NCBI RefSeq assembly: GCF_013032455.1
Contig: NZ_WQCF01000008.1
Coordinates: 62,001-126,000, forward strand
DNA: 64,000 bases
Origin: Ruegeria atlantica
GTDB lineage: Bacteria; Pseudomonadota; Alphaproteobacteria; Rhodobacterales; Rhodobacteraceae
Reading direction: 5' to 3'
The notes under the pieces were generated by a model. It was not told where the DNA came from and did not search any database. It was given only the letters and a program-made list of their open reading frames with translations. This document shows positions 24,707 through 30,528 of this stretch, piece after piece (the stretch's first letter is position 1; each line of letters starts with the position of its first letter). Made by a program: the position numbers and the translations under genes.

Positions 24707-25339
24707 GTGATCAGGATATTGCTTGCCTGCCTGCTGGCAGTAACCGTGGCGGGCTGCACTGGATCGCAGCGACCACAGGCAGATCAGTCGGAAATCGTGT
24801 CCCGGTCCTATCGGGATCCCGGGCCTTCGACCCTGACGCTGTATACGATGATCAGCACCCGGACAGGCTCGGGTGCTCATACCTCGTTGATGATCAGCGG
24901 CAGTGAGCGCGTGATTTTCGACCCTGCAGGCTCATTCCGGGCGGATGTGGTGCCGATCAAGGATGATGTGCTGTACGGTATCACTCCGAATGTCGAGCGC
25001 GCCTATCGCAGCAGTCACGCGCGCGAAACGCATTACGCGCGTATCCAAACCATCGAGGTGACGCCGCAACAGGCTGAGATTGCCCTACAATTGGCAAAAC
25101 AGTCAGGCCCGGTTGCGGGCGCGTTCTGCGCCAATTCAACGGCACAGTTGTTGCAACAGGTTCCGGGGTTCGAGCAGATCCAAACCACGTTCTACCCTGT
25201 CAAACTTTCCGATCAGTTCGGTCAGTTGCCCGGAGTTCAAACCGCCGAATACCGCGAAAACGACAACGCGGATTTGCAGCAAGGATTGGCGTTCAACAAT
25301 GCCCGACTGAACGAGCTGGAAGCAGCATCACCCCAATAG
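24707..25339 (+). CDS. Lipoprotein, possible permuted-papain (YiiX-like) fold
   Basis: A 210-residue lipoprotein: GTG start, signal sequence MIRILLACLLAVTVAGC with the lipobox Cys at 17. A histidine in SGAHTSLMI (H58) followed by RVIFDPAGSF, and much later a cysteine in GAFCANSTAQLLQQ (C141), give the His-before-Cys order of circularly permuted papain-like (NlpC/YiiX) enzymes, which act on amide or ester bonds at the cell envelope. This is pattern recognition, not a search, and could be wrong. The last 12 bases overlap the convergent azlD gene. Confidence 0.65.
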   Translation: MIRILLACLLAVTVAGCTGSQRPQADQSEIVSRSYRDPGPSTLTLYTMISTRTGSGAHTSLMISGSERVIFDPAGSFRADVVPIKDDVLYGITPNVERAYRSSHARETHYARIQTIEVTPQQAEIALQLAKQSGPVAGAFCANSTAQLLQQVPGFEQIQTTFYPVKLSDQFGQLPGVQTAEYRENDNADLQQGLAFNNARLNELEAASPQ

Positions 25340-25660
25340 ATACAGCAGCCCGTAGAGAGTGGCTGCCCCGGTAAAGATAGCCGCAAGCACGTTCTTGGTG
25401 ATCACGCCGACAGACAGTGCGACCGCTGCTGCGGTCATGCGCGGGACATCCGGCTGGCCTTCGGTGGCGGTAGGCCACATGACGAGCGGCGCGATCAGCG
25501 CCGGGATGATGGCAACGGCCGTATAGCGCAGATGGCGCAGCAGCCATGGCGGCATCGGGCGGTCCCCGACCAGACCGATAAAGGTAAAGCGCAAGGCAAA
25601 GCTGCCGATGGCCAGACCGATGATCACGATCCACATGGTTGTAGCGTCGATCTGGGTCAT
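25328..25660 (-). CDS. azlD: AzlD family branched-chain amino-acid transport protein
   Basis: A 110-residue protein with about three to four hydrophobic segments (WIVIIGLAIGSFALRFTFIG at the N-terminus, a central PALIAPLVM block, and a C-terminal NVLAAIFTGAATLYGLLYLLG). It is the small partner of AzlC; the pair exports branched-chain amino acids or analogues such as azaleucine. Its ATG overlaps the azlC stop (ATGA), and it converges with the lipoprotein gene. Confidence 0.9.
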   Translation of the reverse strand: MTQIDATTMWIVIIGLAIGSFALRFTFIGLVGDRPMPPWLLRHLRYTAVAIIPALIAPLVMWPTATEGQPDVPRMTAAAVALSVGVITKNVLAAIFTGAATLYGLLYLLG

Positions 25661-26379
25661 GTTCTTTCCCGCTCCAGCTTGCGTTCCAACATCAGCTCAG
25701 CTTGTGCGCCGGCCATCATGCCTGCCGCCCCGGCAATCAGCAGGCCCAGATTATAGGGAACTGCAACCGCCAGTAACGCGACAACGATGGCGACCAGAGC
25801 GGCCACCACATGCGCCAACGTACGCATCATCGGCCCGATCATGGCCAGAAAGGTGATCGGTAGCGCGAAATCCAGCGCCCAGCTTTCCGGGATTCGCGTG
25901 CCCAGCACTGCCCCCAGATACGATGCAAGAATCCACAGCGGAGTGATCAGTGTGACCGTGCCAATGAAATAGGCCATTCGCTGGGGCACGGTCATTTGTG
26001 GCTCTTTTTCGAACCGTACGATCGAACAGGCATAGGACTGATCCACCGTCAGGTAGGCGGCACAAGCCCGTTGCCATAGGGGCGCGGCCCCCAGATAAGG
26101 CGTCAGAGAGGCAGAATACATCGCCACCCGCAAATTTACCGCCAGCGCCGAGGCCAATACGATGGCGGTGGGTGTATTGTCCTGCAGCAATTGCAGTGCC
26201 GTGAACTGTGCGGCCCCCGCGAACACGGTGGCGGAAAAGGCGATGGTCTGGACGATGTCCAACCCGGCTTCGGTCGCAAAAACGCCGAATAGGGTGCCGA
26301 AAGGGATCGCGACGAAAATGAACGGGGACCCGTCGCGTAAACCCTTCCAGAAGTATGACTTGGATGTGGTGTCTGCCAT
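25657..26379 (-). CDS. azlC: AzlC family branched-chain amino-acid exporter
   Basis: A 240-residue membrane protein with about seven hydrophobic segments. Family features: FIFVAIPFGTLFGVFATEAG at the N-terminus, FAGAAQFTALQLL, and LRVAMYSASLTPYLG. It works with AzlD to export branched-chain amino acids. The start codon lies inside the palindrome CCATGG shared with the divergently read fdhD start, so the two operons start on top of each other with no separate leader; promoters of each must lie inside the other's coding region. Confidence 0.92.
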   Translation of the reverse strand: MADTTSKSYFWKGLRDGSPFIFVAIPFGTLFGVFATEAGLDIVQTIAFSATVFAGAAQFTALQLLQDNTPTAIVLASALAVNLRVAMYSASLTPYLGAAPLWQRACAAYLTVDQSYACSIVRFEKEPQMTVPQRMAYFIGTVTLITPLWILASYLGAVLGTRIPESWALDFALPITFLAMIGPMMRTLAHVVAALVAIVVALLAVAVPYNLGLLIAGAAGMMAGAQAELMLERKLERERT

Positions 26380-27319
26380 GGCTAAATCCTATGGTGTCCG
26401 CAGCAGAAGTAGCGGTCTTGGGAAAGGGTTGCAATTGGTTACGGAACTGGATGTCTCGGACTACATCATCGCCCCAGATCCCGGCGCGGCGCGATTGACT
26501 CGTGCAGTTGAGGGCGTGGACCAGAATGGAGAGGTCAGCCATATCTCGGTTGTCGAGGAGCGCCCTTTGACGATTTTCCTGAATAAACAGGAAATCGTGA
26601 CCGCAATGACCATCGGCGACTATCCAGAATACCTGGCGCTGGGGTTCCTGCGCAATCAGGGCATGCTGCTGTCGGATGATGAGATCACGCGCGTCGATTA
26701 CGATGATGACTTGGAAACCGTGGTTGTCCGCACAGCGCGCGAGACTTCTTATGAGGACAAGCTGAAGAAAAAGACCCGCACCAGCGGTTGCGCAGTAGGC
26801 ACCGTGTTCGGCGATATGATGGAGGGGCTCGAGGACGTGCGCCTGCCTCAGGTTCAGGTGCGCACCTCGTGGCTGTATGATTTGGCGGCCAAGATCAACC
26901 GCACCCCGTCGCTGTATCTTGAGGCTGGGGCGATCCACGGCACCGTCCTGTGTCGCGAAAATCGCCCGCTGGTCTATATGGAAGACGTGGGCCGCCACAA
27001 CGCGGTCGACAAGATCGCAGGCTGGATGCTGTCCGAGGGTGCGGCAGCGGAGGATAAGATTCTCTACACGACCGGTCGTTTGACCTCGGAAATGGTGATC
27101 AAGACGGCGATGATGGGCATCCCGGTTCTGGCATCCCGCTCGGGATTCACCGCCTGGGGTGTCGAGATTGCGCGCGAGGTCGGTCTGACCCTGATCGGCC
27201 GTATGCGCGGGCAGCGGTTTGTCTGCCTGTCGGGCGAGGACCGGTTGGTGCGTGACGTTGATCCGGCGACTGTTCAGGTTGAGGATAAGAAACATCGCAG
27301 GAAAAGTGCCAATGGCTGA
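26378..27319 (+). CDS. fdhD: Formate dehydrogenase accessory sulfurtransferase FdhD
   Basis: A 313-residue protein that delivers sulfur to the molybdenum cofactor of formate dehydrogenases, using a persulfide. Motifs: IGDYPEYLALGFLRNQG, TSGCAVGTVFG, HGTVLCRENRPLVYMEDVGR, HNAVDKIAGWML, TTGRLTSEMVIKTAMMGIPV. The CxxC of E. coli FdhD (Cys121/Cys124) is here reduced to a single Cys (C138 in GCAVG). The start is uncertain: ATG 26378 overlaps the azlC ATG, while TTG 26437 is preceded by GGAAAGGG at good spacing. First gene of the operon fdhD-mobA-mobB-moeA. Confidence 0.92.
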   Translation: MAKSYGVRSRSSGLGKGLQLVTELDVSDYIIAPDPGAARLTRAVEGVDQNGEVSHISVVEERPLTIFLNKQEIVTAMTIGDYPEYLALGFLRNQGMLLSDDEITRVDYDDDLETVVVRTARETSYEDKLKKKTRTSGCAVGTVFGDMMEGLEDVRLPQVQVRTSWLYDLAAKINRTPSLYLEAGAIHGTVLCRENRPLVYMEDVGRHNAVDKIAGWMLSEGAAAEDKILYTTGRLTSEMVIKTAMMGIPVLASRSGFTAWGVEIAREVGLTLIGRMRGQRFVCLSGEDRLVRDVDPATVQVEDKKHRRKSANG

Positions 27320-27968
27320 GGCGGCAAGAAAACCACTTGGCGTAATTCTAGCAGGCGGTCTTGCCACCCGAATGGGTGGTGGCGACAAGGGGCTGCTGCA
27401 GGTGGGCGGCCAAAGCCTGTTGCACCACGTGATCGAACGGCTGCAACCTCAAGTGGCTGGAGTCGCGCTGAATGCCAATGGTGATCCTGAACGGTTCGCC
27501 GATCTGAATCTGCCCATCCTACCCGACACGATCGAAGGTTTCGCTGGTCCTTTGGCGGGCGTTTTGGCGGGGCTCGAATGGGCGGCCACGCAAGGGGCTG
27601 ACAGTATCGTCACCGCTGCCGCCGACACACCGTTTTTTCCGCGCGATCTGGTGGCGCGCCTTCTGCAGGCAGCCGAAGGGCAAACCCATCCCCTGGTGCT
27701 GGCCACCACGCCGCGTACTGGGGATGAGGCGCTGAAATCCGGCGGGGGTAAGCGGATCAACCGGCATCCGACCTTTGGCCTCTGGCCTGTGGCGCTGCGC
27801 GATGATCTGCGGGATGCATTGAACGACGGGTTGCGCAAGGTCGTGCTGTGGACCGATCAACATGACGGGCGTGAGGCGCTGTTTCCGGCGGAGCCGTTCG
27901 ACCCGTTTTTCAACGTCAACACGCCTGATGATCTGGCACGGGCCGAACAACTGCAGGAGCAGGCATGA
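27312..27968 (+). CDS. mobA: Molybdenum cofactor guanylyltransferase MobA
   Basis: A 218-residue nucleotidyltransferase that adds GMP to molybdenum cofactor to form bis-MGD, used by enzymes such as formate dehydrogenase. Motifs: GVILAGGLATRMGGGDKGLL (P-loop type start) and VTAAADTPFFPRDL (metal-binding D), plus FFNVNTPDDL at the end. It overlaps fdhD by 8 bp and mobB by 4 bp. The ATG at 27312 is preferred to a longer upstream reading lying within fdhD. Confidence 0.95.
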   Translation: MAEAARKPLGVILAGGLATRMGGGDKGLLQVGGQSLLHHVIERLQPQVAGVALNANGDPERFADLNLPILPDTIEGFAGPLAGVLAGLEWAATQGADSIVTAAADTPFFPRDLVARLLQAAEGQTHPLVLATTPRTGDEALKSGGGKRINRHPTFGLWPVALRDDLRDALNDGLRKVVLWTDQHDGREALFPAEPFDPFFNVNTPDDLARAEQLQEQA

Positions 27969-28456
27969 GGGTCTACGGCGTCACCGGCTGGAAAAACGCA
28001 GGCAAAACCGGGCTTATGGAGCGGCTGGTGGCCGAGATCACCAGACGTGGTTTTACAGTATCGACCCTGAAACATGCCCATCACCGCGTCGATGTCGATC
28101 AGGAAGGTACCGACAGCTATCGACACCGGCTTGCGGGGGCATCCGAAGTGTTGCTGGCCTCGGGTCAGCGTATCGCCCTCATGCAAGAGCTGCGCGGTGC
28201 GCCTGAGCCATCTTTGGAAGACCTTCTGGGGCGCTTGTCGCCTGTCGATCTGGTGCTGATCGAAGGGTTCAAGCGCGAAGCCCATCCCAAGGTCGAAGCG
28301 TTTCGGGCCGAGGTGGGTAATGCTCTGATGGCTCCTGAAAACACCACTATTCGCGCCGTTGCCAGTGACACGCCGCTGAATGTGAAGGTGCCGGTTTTCG
28401 ATCTGAACGACACCGAATCTATCGCAAATTTCATCCTGCAGGAGGTTGGTTTGTGA
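27965..28456 (+). CDS. mobB: Molybdopterin-guanine dinucleotide biosynthesis protein MobB
   Basis: A 163-residue GTP-binding protein that assists MobA in forming the guanine dinucleotide cofactor. The P-loop reads GVTGWKNAGKTGLMERL and the second motif STLKHAHHRVDVDQEGTDS, with a D/E site in VDLVLIEGFKREAHPK. Length and order are standard. It overlaps both mobA and the moeA fusion by 4 bp. Confidence 0.95.
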   Translation: MRVYGVTGWKNAGKTGLMERLVAEITRRGFTVSTLKHAHHRVDVDQEGTDSYRHRLAGASEVLLASGQRIALMQELRGAPEPSLEDLLGRLSPVDLVLIEGFKREAHPKVEAFRAEVGNALMAPENTTIRAVASDTPLNVKVPVFDLNDTESIANFILQEVGL

Positions 28457-30528
28457 CCGGTTTCGACAGTTTCGCCATGGTCGACTGGTCCAGCGGCAAC
28501 GATACCGGCCCCCGACCGCGTAAGGATGCGATCTGGGCTTGTGTGGTGCGCAAGGGCGAAGCGGAAGAGCCGATGTATCTCAGAAACCGCGGCATTGCTG
28601 AACTGTGGTTGCGAAACCTGATCGAGACCGAGATTGCCGCCAGTCGGCGGCTGTTTCTGGGCTTCGATTTCCCTTTTGGCTATCCCAAAGGTTTTGCCCG
28701 TGCGCTGACGGGATCGGATGATCCGCTGAAACTGTGGGATTGGTTCGAACGCCGGACTGAGGACTCGCCCAAGGCCAACAATCGATTCGATCTGGCTGGT
28801 GAGATCAACCGGCACTTTGGCGGTAAAGGTCCGTTCTGGTTCAACGGTCTGCAACGCGACATCGACGGCCTGCCCAAAAATAAATCTGATTACCAAAATC
28901 CCTTCCCCGAGCGCCGGGCTGTCGAACTGATGCCGGAAGCCAAGGGCAGCTTTTCCTGCTGGCAGATGGGCGGTGCCGGGGCAGTCGGGGGTCAGGTAAT
29001 GATGGGCCTGCCAGTGCTGGCCCGCTTGCGTCACGCATTTGCCGGGCAGATCTCAGTTTGGCCGTTCGAGGCGCTGGACACGCCGGTTGCCTTCGTGGAA
29101 ATCTGGCCCTCGCTGACCCTTGGGGCTGCGCCGGACGGGCGGATCAAGGATGCCTGGCAGGTTGAACAGGTTGCCCAGTCACTTGCACGGATGCAGGTCG
29201 AGGAACTGGCGCAACATCTGAACGTGAACGCAGCAGAGGAAGGTTGGATTTTGGGAGTGTCACAGAGCAAACCGAATATCGCACCGCCGCCACTGCGTAA
29301 CGATTGTTTCGCTTTGCCCGCCGGAGTGAACTGGACGCCGGTGGACGATGCACTGGCGCTGTTGCGTGAGCGGTTGACTGTGGTCGCAACGCCCGAAAGG
29401 GTCGCACTGTCACAGGCCGCAGGGCGTATTTTGACTGAGGATGTCCTTGCGAACCGTTCGAACCCGCCGCAACCGAATACGGCGGTGGATGGTTATGGAT
29501 TTGCTGGTGCTGCCCAAGAGGGCGCGCAAGTCATGCCTCTGTATCCGGGGCGGGCGGCTGCGGGCATGCCTTTTGACGGGACTGTGCCGGATGGTCATGC
29601 CGTGCGCGTGCTGACGGGTGCCGCTCTGCCTGACGGCGTGGATACGGTCATTCTGGAAGAAGATGTGACGGTTCAGGACAACCACATCGCTTTTCACGGG
29701 CCTTTGAAACAGGGCGCCAACACCCGCCGCGCTGGCGAGGATGTGGCCGAGGGAAATCTGGTTCTGCCCGCCGGGCGCAGGCTGACGCCCGCCGATCTGG
29801 CCTTGCTGTCGGCAACGGGCATCGCGGAAATCCATGTGCGCAAGACCTTGCGCGTGGCAGTTCTGTCCACCGGGGATGAACTGGTTGAGCCCGGTGAAAC
29901 CGCTGGGCCCGGTCAGATATTTGATGCCAATCGGCCAATGCTTTTGTCGCTGATTGATCGGATGGGGTTTCAGCCGGTGGATTTGGGGCGCGTGCCGGAT
30001 GATCGCGCAGCGTTGCGCGACCGGTTGAACAACGCGTCAAAGCAGGCGGATGTGATCCTGACCAGCGGCGGAGCGTCCGCCGGGGATGAAGATCACGTCT
30101 CGGCCCTGCTGCGCGAGGCAGGTGCGATGCAGGAATGGCGGATTGCGCTGAAACCGGGTCGCCCTCTGGCGTTGGGCCTGTGGAACGGCACGCCAGTGTT
30201 TGGTCTGCCCGGAAACCCGGTGGCGGCTATGGTCTGCACTTTGATCTTTGCCCGCCCGGCGCTGGGGCTAATGGCAGGTGAGGGGTGGCAAGAGCCGCAG
30301 GCTTTTGATCTGCCTGCTGCCTTTGAAAAACGCAAGAAAGCGGGCCGTCGCGAGTATCTGCGCGCCCGTGTCAGGGATGGTCGGGCCGAGGTGTTCGCCT
30401 CGGAAGGGTCGGGCCGGATCAGCGGGCTAAGCTGGGCCGAAGGGCTGGTCGAAATTGAAGACGGTGCGCGTCATATCAAACCGGGCGATATGGTCCGGTT
30501 CATCCCCTATGGCAGTTTTGGGCTTTAG
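28453..30528 (+). CDS. moeA: Fusion of a DUF429-like domain with molybdopterin molybdotransferase MoeA
   Basis: A 691-residue two-part protein. Residues about 285-691 form a full MoeA, which inserts molybdate into adenylylated molybdopterin: PNTAVDGYGF, STGDELVEPGE, SGGASAGDEDHV, KPGRPLALG and GLPGNPVAAMV. Residues 1-280 are an unrelated domain with AMVDWSSGND (D11), LGFDFPFGYPKG (D72) and FVEIWPSLT (E216); this spacing of acidic residues and the GFDxPxGxP block resemble DUF429-type RNase H-like domains. E. coli MoeA lacks it. The function of the extra domain is unknown. The gene ends the operon and overlaps the convergent gene at its stop. Confidence 0.9.
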   Translation: MTGFDSFAMVDWSSGNDTGPRPRKDAIWACVVRKGEAEEPMYLRNRGIAELWLRNLIETEIAASRRLFLGFDFPFGYPKGFARALTGSDDPLKLWDWFERRTEDSPKANNRFDLAGEINRHFGGKGPFWFNGLQRDIDGLPKNKSDYQNPFPERRAVELMPEAKGSFSCWQMGGAGAVGGQVMMGLPVLARLRHAFAGQISVWPFEALDTPVAFVEIWPSLTLGAAPDGRIKDAWQVEQVAQSLARMQVEELAQHLNVNAAEEGWILGVSQSKPNIAPPPLRNDCFALPAGVNWTPVDDALALLRERLTVVATPERVALSQAAGRILTEDVLANRSNPPQPNTAVDGYGFAGAAQEGAQVMPLYPGRAAAGMPFDGTVPDGHAVRVLTGAALPDGVDTVILEEDVTVQDNHIAFHGPLKQGANTRRAGEDVAEGNLVLPAGRRLTPADLALLSATGIAEIHVRKTLRVAVLSTGDELVEPGETAGPGQIFDANRPMLLSLIDRMGFQPVDLGRVPDDRAALRDRLNNASKQADVILTSGGASAGDEDHVSALLREAGAMQEWRIALKPGRPLALGLWNGTPVFGLPGNPVAAMVCTLIFARPALGLMAGEGWQEPQAFDLPAAFEKRKKAGRREYLRARVRDGRAEVFASEGSGRISGLSWAEGLVEIEDGARHIKPGDMVRFIPYGSFGL

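Follow-up and report, generated by a model that had tools for sequence, protein, structure and literature searches.

A conserved RNase H/RuvC-like domain fused to MoeA in Ruegeria atlantica as a candidate optional accessory of metal-cofactor assembly

Results

Gene layout

We describe a composite gene in a 64,000-nucleotide stretch of the Ruegeria atlantica genome (contig NZ_WQCF01000008.1, positions 62,001 to 126,000; hereafter the window), in which a domain of ~270 residues, called X in this study, is followed in a single open reading frame (ORF) by a complete MoeA, the enzyme that inserts molybdenum or tungsten. The ORF at 28453-30528 of the + strand encodes 691 amino acids and stands last in the order fdhD-mobA-mobB-X/moeA on that strand. 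Its GTG start codon, at 28453, overlaps the mobB stop codon TGA (28454-28456), and its own stop lies at 30526-30528. The preceding genes, all on the + strand, are fdhD (26162..27319; Pfam FdhD-NarQ, E 1e-75), whose true start lies inside the ORF since the domain begins at ORF residue ~131, mobA (27312..27968, start inferred; above the cut-off of NCBIfam TIGR02665), and mobB (27965..28456; Pfam MobB, E 2e-46).

X occupies residues 1-284 (28453..29304, + strand), with a folded core of residues ~1-271, and is joined by a linker of residues 272-295 (29266..29337, +), containing SKPNIAPPPLRNDCFALP, to the MoeA part at residues 296-687 (29338..30513, +), which carries the motifs KPGR and NPVA. Three Pfam domains above cut-off (MoeA_N, MoCF_biosynth, and MoeA_C) identify residues 296-685 as MoeA, and the E. 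coli-type MoeA model NF007960 covers residues 296-685 only, so that the ~280 N-terminal residues are extra. The initial annotation of this DNA, which had placed a DUF429-like domain of about that length before MoeA, was thus right about coordinates, strand, length, and the excess over E. coli MoeA.

Predicted fold

An AlphaFold2 model of X built on 60 sequences (predicted local distance difference test score [pLDDT] 91.5; predicted template modeling score [pTM] 0.89) has its elements in the RNase H order: a putative three-stranded meander (strands 6-11, 27-33, and 41-43), a helix (46-62), strand 4 (67-71), an insert, a helix (178-195), strand 5 (200-203 and 212-217), and a last long helix (232-246). 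In this model D11 (codon 28483..28485, +) ends strand 1, D72 (28666..28668, +; motif GFDFPFGYP) lies just past strand 4, E216 (29098..29100, +; motif VEIWPS) sits on the late strand 212-217, and D233 opens the last helix with the motif D233-A-W-Q236 (29149..29160, +). RNase H-like proteins characteristically carry acids where strands 1 and 4 end and in the last helix; in X these would be D11, D72, and D233.

Structure comparison gave a more distant picture. A Foldseek search of the X model returned nothing at E <0.001 from the PDB (best E 0.023) or from viral structure models, and the best sequence match to a solved structure, at E 0.18, is unconvincing. The best VIA-align rows were Spt6 (Z 7.2), Cas9 (7.1), phage RuvC (6.9), and Thermus thermophilus RuvC (6.7), and the list also holds bacterial RuvC, terminase nucleases, RuvX, Cas12a, and MutS; all have Z <8, a range in which a match may reflect merely a common arrangement of elements. 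With the exception of GspL, we take almost every one of the 50 rows to be RNase H/RuvC-like. The model supports for X the RNase H-like fold that the initial annotation had predicted from its motifs, and these distant rows would agree with it. The full-length X-MoeA model (43 sequences) has a pTM of 0.55, compared with 0.89 for X alone, and places linker residues 272-279 at pLDDT <50; hence it predicts no confident or fixed arrangement of the two parts.

Conservation and selection

The three acidic residues singled out by the initial annotation, D11, D72, and E216, lie where it had placed them and are invariant, together with D233 and E263, in 133/133 sequences of <75% mutual identity (the window's included), as are W12, P78, N119, P127, W129, R155, Q181, G185, and P204. 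E263 belongs to the conserved C-terminal signature EGWI (codons of E263-G-W, 29239..29247, +). In a 56-row alignment at <62% identity, D11, D72, E216, and D233 remain invariant and E263 nearly so. A wider set comprised 61 rows of the order (Rhodobacterales), 35 from outside the order, and 11 of a sister family; D11, D72, E216, and E263 are identical throughout, D233 is present in 61/61, 35/35, and 7/11 rows, respectively, and Q236 in 60/61 rows of the order and 35/35 outside it. The conserved nonacidic residues of this wider set include W12, N119, R155, and Q181. X is under purifying selection: the median ratio of nonsynonymous to synonymous substitution rates (dN/dS) is 0.104 (58 usable of 66 pairs from 12 close loci). 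MoeA and MobB, each with 66 pairs from these loci, have medians of 0.080 and 0.094, respectively; the median dS of 1.2-1.6 is close to saturation.

Relation to known families

The window protein has no Pfam match over X at E up to 1. This includes DUF429 (PF04250; gathering cut-off, 23 bits), a family placed in the RNase H-like superfamily (PMC3985635); the best of ten X relatives scanned against it reached 13.5 bits (L247), and PF04250 has no match in the whole genome at E up to 0.01. Profile comparisons, whose E values refer to single comparisons and not to a database, gave a nonsignificant E of 0.097 against 17 canonical DUF429 proteins, so a direct match was dropped, and an E of 5.5e-8 across 47 columns against five divergent proteins above the Pfam DUF429 cut-off. 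X also matches its sister family (E 6e-35), which itself matches the divergent DUF429 members at E 2e-7 and the canonical ones at E 0.16. Because the canonical profile fails and only the divergent members and the sister family match, we call X DUF429-like, a probable remote relative, without assigning it to DUF429 itself; the name given by the initial annotation holds in this looser sense. Canonical DUF429 ends in DDxxDA and the sister family mostly in DHxxDA. Judging from a gapped alignment, DAxQ of X, with L260 as an intermediate form, appears to correspond to the DxxD found in RuvC/DUF429-like relatives, the last Asp being replaced by Gln.

NCBIfam already contains the domain, under the label "unknown domain" in a MobB fusion protein: X matches the second half (positions 165-444) of NF011066/PRK14495 at E 8e-56. 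The whole-protein cut-off of 596 bits is not reached in the window, where the parts of PRK14495 score 190 and 209 bits in separate genes.

The sister family consists of stand-alone proteins of ~300 residues, whose genes adjoin that of the AAA+ ATPase RarA/MgsA in 5/9 loci scanned (L252:2587-3459, L254:2848-3765, L255:2764-3645, L256:2995-3951, and L257:2824-3729), so that a protein of RuvC-like fold is encoded beside an ATPase resembling RuvB.

Distribution and gene contexts within the order

X was found at E up to 0.001 in 182/292 genomes of the order, a few of the matches being weak, and in 20/54 genomes of the genus Ruegeria, one of them across residues 260-284 alone. In the class, 81/385 genomes match, 43 of them at E <1e-50; of these 43, 4 belong to the window's family and 39 do not, and the weaker matches are mostly of the sister type. 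In the phylum, 43/349 genomes match, and since all those at E <1e-50 belong to the same class, X looks alphaproteobacterial at the sampling used. A contig search yielded 488 stretches encoding a relative; among the best 80, which were kept, the closest are from Ruegeria (best, 85% identity, the window's own genome being possibly excluded).

We read 129 loci of the order besides the window's, a set that passes over 20 listed genomes and the weakest of the 182 matches. In 123 of them X adjoins mob/moe genes or forms part of one: it is fused to MoeA in 80, stands between MobB and MoeA in 13, follows MobA in 23 or MobA and MobB in 3, and is fused to MobB in 3 and to MobA in 1 (L179), where the junction contains Met residues and two proteins without an intervening stop are possible. 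The best 80 contig loci, which partly overlap with these, comprise 63 fusions, 15 cases between MobB and MoeA, 1 of MobA then X, and 1 of MobA, MobB, then X. X and MoeA form one open frame in 144/210 loci read. Gene order and three kinds of fusion (with MoeA, MobB, and MobA) support a link of X to molybdenum-cofactor synthesis, as the initial annotation had supposed. Beside fdhD, two ORFs of the opposite strand (25328-26379) resemble, as we presume, an AzlD/AzlC pair; AzlC-like ORFs also occur near MobA and X in L167 and L205.

MoeA type

MoeA is encoded three times in the R. atlantica genome. Work on Methylorubrum extorquens published in 2026 (PMC13197769) placed MoeA1 in a tungsten branch together with MobB, MobA, and FdhD and named Arg291 and Ala312 as tungstate favoring in MoeA1. 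The window MoeA has R and A at the corresponding places (in KPGR and NPVA), which were matched by motif. R and A occur in 186/186 MobB-linked MoeA rows, with or without X, and K and S in 15/17 rows of MoeA paralogues, the exceptions (L302 and L303) being themselves beside MobB. X is thus joined to the MoeA branch that resembles the tungsten one, on a sequence signature taken from one study.

Gain, loss, and fusion

In a FastTree phylogeny of 186 MoeA rows (143 fused to X, 27 with X separate, and 16 without X), the presence or absence of X requires at least 10 changes and the fused or separate state at least 13 among X-bearing rows; on well-supported branches alone, the label "no X" needs 6 changes and "separate" 8. 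Separate encoding of the two domains in close relatives, which the initial annotation had regarded as decisive against its proposal, does occur, in 27/170 X-bearing loci including a Ruegeria pomeroyi strain, so that the X-MoeA fusion is lineage specific rather than fixed.

Nine Ruegeria genomes without X keep mobA-mobB-moeA, with mobB directly followed by moeA, and their MoeA proteins are 79-89% identical to the window's. In 9/9 of them the MoeA frame runs into IxPPPL(R/K/Q)NDCFALP, which in the window is the peptide joining X and MoeA; the residues before it are KPD in five genomes, PPN in three, and PK in the remaining one. A tenth genome (L328) keeps EGWILGV, the last signature of X, before the linker in its MoeA ORF on the - strand, which reads as a deletion of X caught as a scar. 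Because these sisters keep the pathway genes, one with the scar, X seems optional and seems to supply no obligatory step; of the role in molybdenum-cofactor synthesis foreseen by the initial annotation, the pathway link therefore stands and the supply of a step is disfavored. MobB-MoeA fusions devoid of X also exist in the window's own family (L297:1498-3321 and L299:877-2715, in genomes lacking X).

Contexts outside the order

Among the 39 genomes outside the family with strong matches, 35 were read, 26 loci with a flank of 1.5 kb and nine with one of up to 4 kb. In 10/35 of these loci outside the order, CbiX, X, CbiC, and CbiET are consecutive on one strand (L218, L219, L221, L226, L228, L232, L233, L235, L237, and L240), and in five (L221, L226, L232, L237, and L240) X and CbiC share a single frame with no internal Met at the junctions shown. 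A wider flank of the L235 genome (L317) holds the run CobS, CobC-like phosphatase, CobU, CobW, RegB, RegA, CbiX, X, CbiC, CbiET, and CobI. This presence in cobalamin operons is beyond what the initial annotation foresaw. The L317 cluster also contains two short ORFs (L317:4471-5010 and L317:12759-13088), neither of which matches an NCBIfam model at E up to 1e-8; for the second, Pfam likewise gave nothing at E up to 1e-4.

A FastTree phylogeny of X (96 rows) splits with support 99 into clades of 32 and 64 rows. The former is entirely from outside the order and holds all ten cobalamin cases; the latter has 61 rows from the order, and the stretches read around its other three (L215-L217) contain neither mob nor moe genes. 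In L216:1072-3906 and L324:3357-8359, hydantoinase A follows X in frame and is followed by hydantoinase B; the L216 junction has an internal Met and may represent two proteins without a stop between them, so this X-HyuA frame was left uncounted as a fusion.

Discussion

We propose, with about even confidence, that X is an RNase H/RuvC-fold domain, a remote DUF429 relative, recruited as an optional accessory of metal-cofactor assembly (molybdenum or tungsten, and cobalt). In the order, X would act with the late proteins of the molybdenum/tungsten cofactor, i.e., MobA, MobB, and a tungstate-type MoeA, either as the product of a neighboring gene or tethered to MoeA via the flexible linker; in other Alphaproteobacteria, it would act beside the cobaltochelatase CbiX and CbiC. 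The acidic cluster D11/D72/E216/D233 may bind Mg2+ or Mn2+ and hydrolyze a phosphoester, which could be that of a nucleotide, a nucleotidylated intermediate, or RNA. X would in this way tune or protect metal insertion instead of catalyzing an obligatory step.

Several observations weigh against this proposal. All fusions join operon neighbors and could reflect lost stop codons without joint function, so that the weight lies on gene order, to which the fusions add less than they might suggest. Mob/moe genes are missing from the stretch read in 6/129 loci of the order, and CbiX and CbiC are missing from the 1.5-4 kb read in 25/35 loci outside it, where X has among its neighbors EamA transporters in 3 loci, CCA-adding enzymes in 5, and HyuA/HyuB at L216/L324. 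The tungstate-type residues of MoeA do not explain X, because genomes lacking X share them. Matches to PF00384 are alike in the genus (mean of 6.2 in 19 X-bearing genomes and 6.3 in the 35 others), and X as a marker of more molybdoenzymes was dropped for this reason. Moreover, Q236 at the place of the relatives' Asp may point to altered or lost nuclease chemistry. A link with the CCA-adding enzyme was also dropped, as all five cases are convergent and on the opposite strand and hence no operon with X.

The strongest of the alternatives, to which we would give perhaps a minor share of belief, is that X functions as a nuclease on RNA or DNA and that its targets either have nothing to do with the cofactor or are the transcripts of its own operon, in a posttranscriptional feedback. 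The predicted fold, the four conserved acids, and the position of the sister family next to a RuvB-like AAA+ ATPase are what one would expect from such an enzyme. The linkage of X to mob/moe genes across the order speaks against it, as do the apparent replacement of the last Asp of the RuvC-type DxxD by Gln and the lack of any Rfam match reaching the gathering score, both in the window and in four loci outside the order (L317-L320); this last result also led us to drop a riboswitch-linked RNA regulator.

Somewhat less probable is a scaffold devoid of catalytic activity, which would bind MobB, MobA, MoeA, or CbiX/CbiC so as to channel an intermediate. Fusions to four partners, the many conserved nonacidic residues (e.g., W12, N119, R155, and Q181), and the absence of X from sisters that keep the pathway would agree with such a function, but the completeness of D11, D72, E216, D233, and E263 across the 61 + 35 rows exceeds the need of a scaffold, and the full-length model has no confident docking of X on MoeA. 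Finally, an improbable passenger with an unrelated housekeeping role, its operon place and fusions being by-products of gene order, would suit the restriction of fusions to adjacent genes, the numerous changes on the MoeA tree, and the mixed contexts outside the order, but the presence of X in two unrelated cofactor clusters (molybdenum/tungsten and cobalt), in two clades of the X tree and with fusions in both, is hard to obtain by chance.

Returning to an accessory role in metal-cofactor assembly, a bolder and more doubtful extension is that one nuclease-fold domain was exapted, in two clades, as a shared accessory of metal insertion into both the tungsten/molybdenum pterin (with MobA, MobB, and MoeA1-type MoeA) and the cobalt corrinoid (with CbiX and CbiC). 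If this were true, cells would share a common chemical need at the metal-insertion stage that X meets; a role in the assembly of both would hint at a chemistry of quality control or regulation that the two have in common and that is as yet undescribed. Titles and abstract openings gave no description of X in the molybdenum-cofactor or cobalamin pathway, subscription papers and preprints lying outside that search. Late assembly of the molybdenum/tungsten cofactor retains proteins whose exact role is unresolved, MobB included (PMC13197769), and how aerobic bacteria sort molybdenum from tungsten is unclear; X, fused as it is to MoeA, MobB, MobA, and CbiC, offers a direct handle on this question. 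X could be deleted in a tractable marine bacterium, with natural sisters lacking X and having near-identical MoeA as controls.

Compared with known systems, X resembles canonical DUF429 in having a D at strand 1, a D-x-P that follows strand 4, and an E-x-x-P within a late strand; it differs by an insert of ~100 residues after strand 4 and, apparently, by DAxQ instead of DDxxDA. It stands apart from RuvC, YqgF-RuvX, and the YqgF domain of Spt6, with an identity of 6-12% in the best rows at Z <8, where a common arrangement of elements may suffice. Its closest named counterpart is PRK14495, the MobB/unknown domain fusion protein, whose unknown half is X and whose MobB half matches the separate MobB of the window; unlike in PRK14495, X is fused here forward to MoeA and not to MobB. 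The MobB-MoeA fusion NF011060, of a kind also found in the window's family, lacks X. The window MoeA resembles the MoeA1-MobB tungsten branch of M. extorquens in being MobB linked and in its R and A residues, and X is not described in the available part of that study (PMC13197769). Unlike in MogA-MoeA proteins (gephyrin and Cnx1) and in archaeal MoeA-PBP (PMC11733289), the partner X is neither MogA nor periplasmic-binding-protein-like; as in both of these, MoeA is one module of a longer protein.

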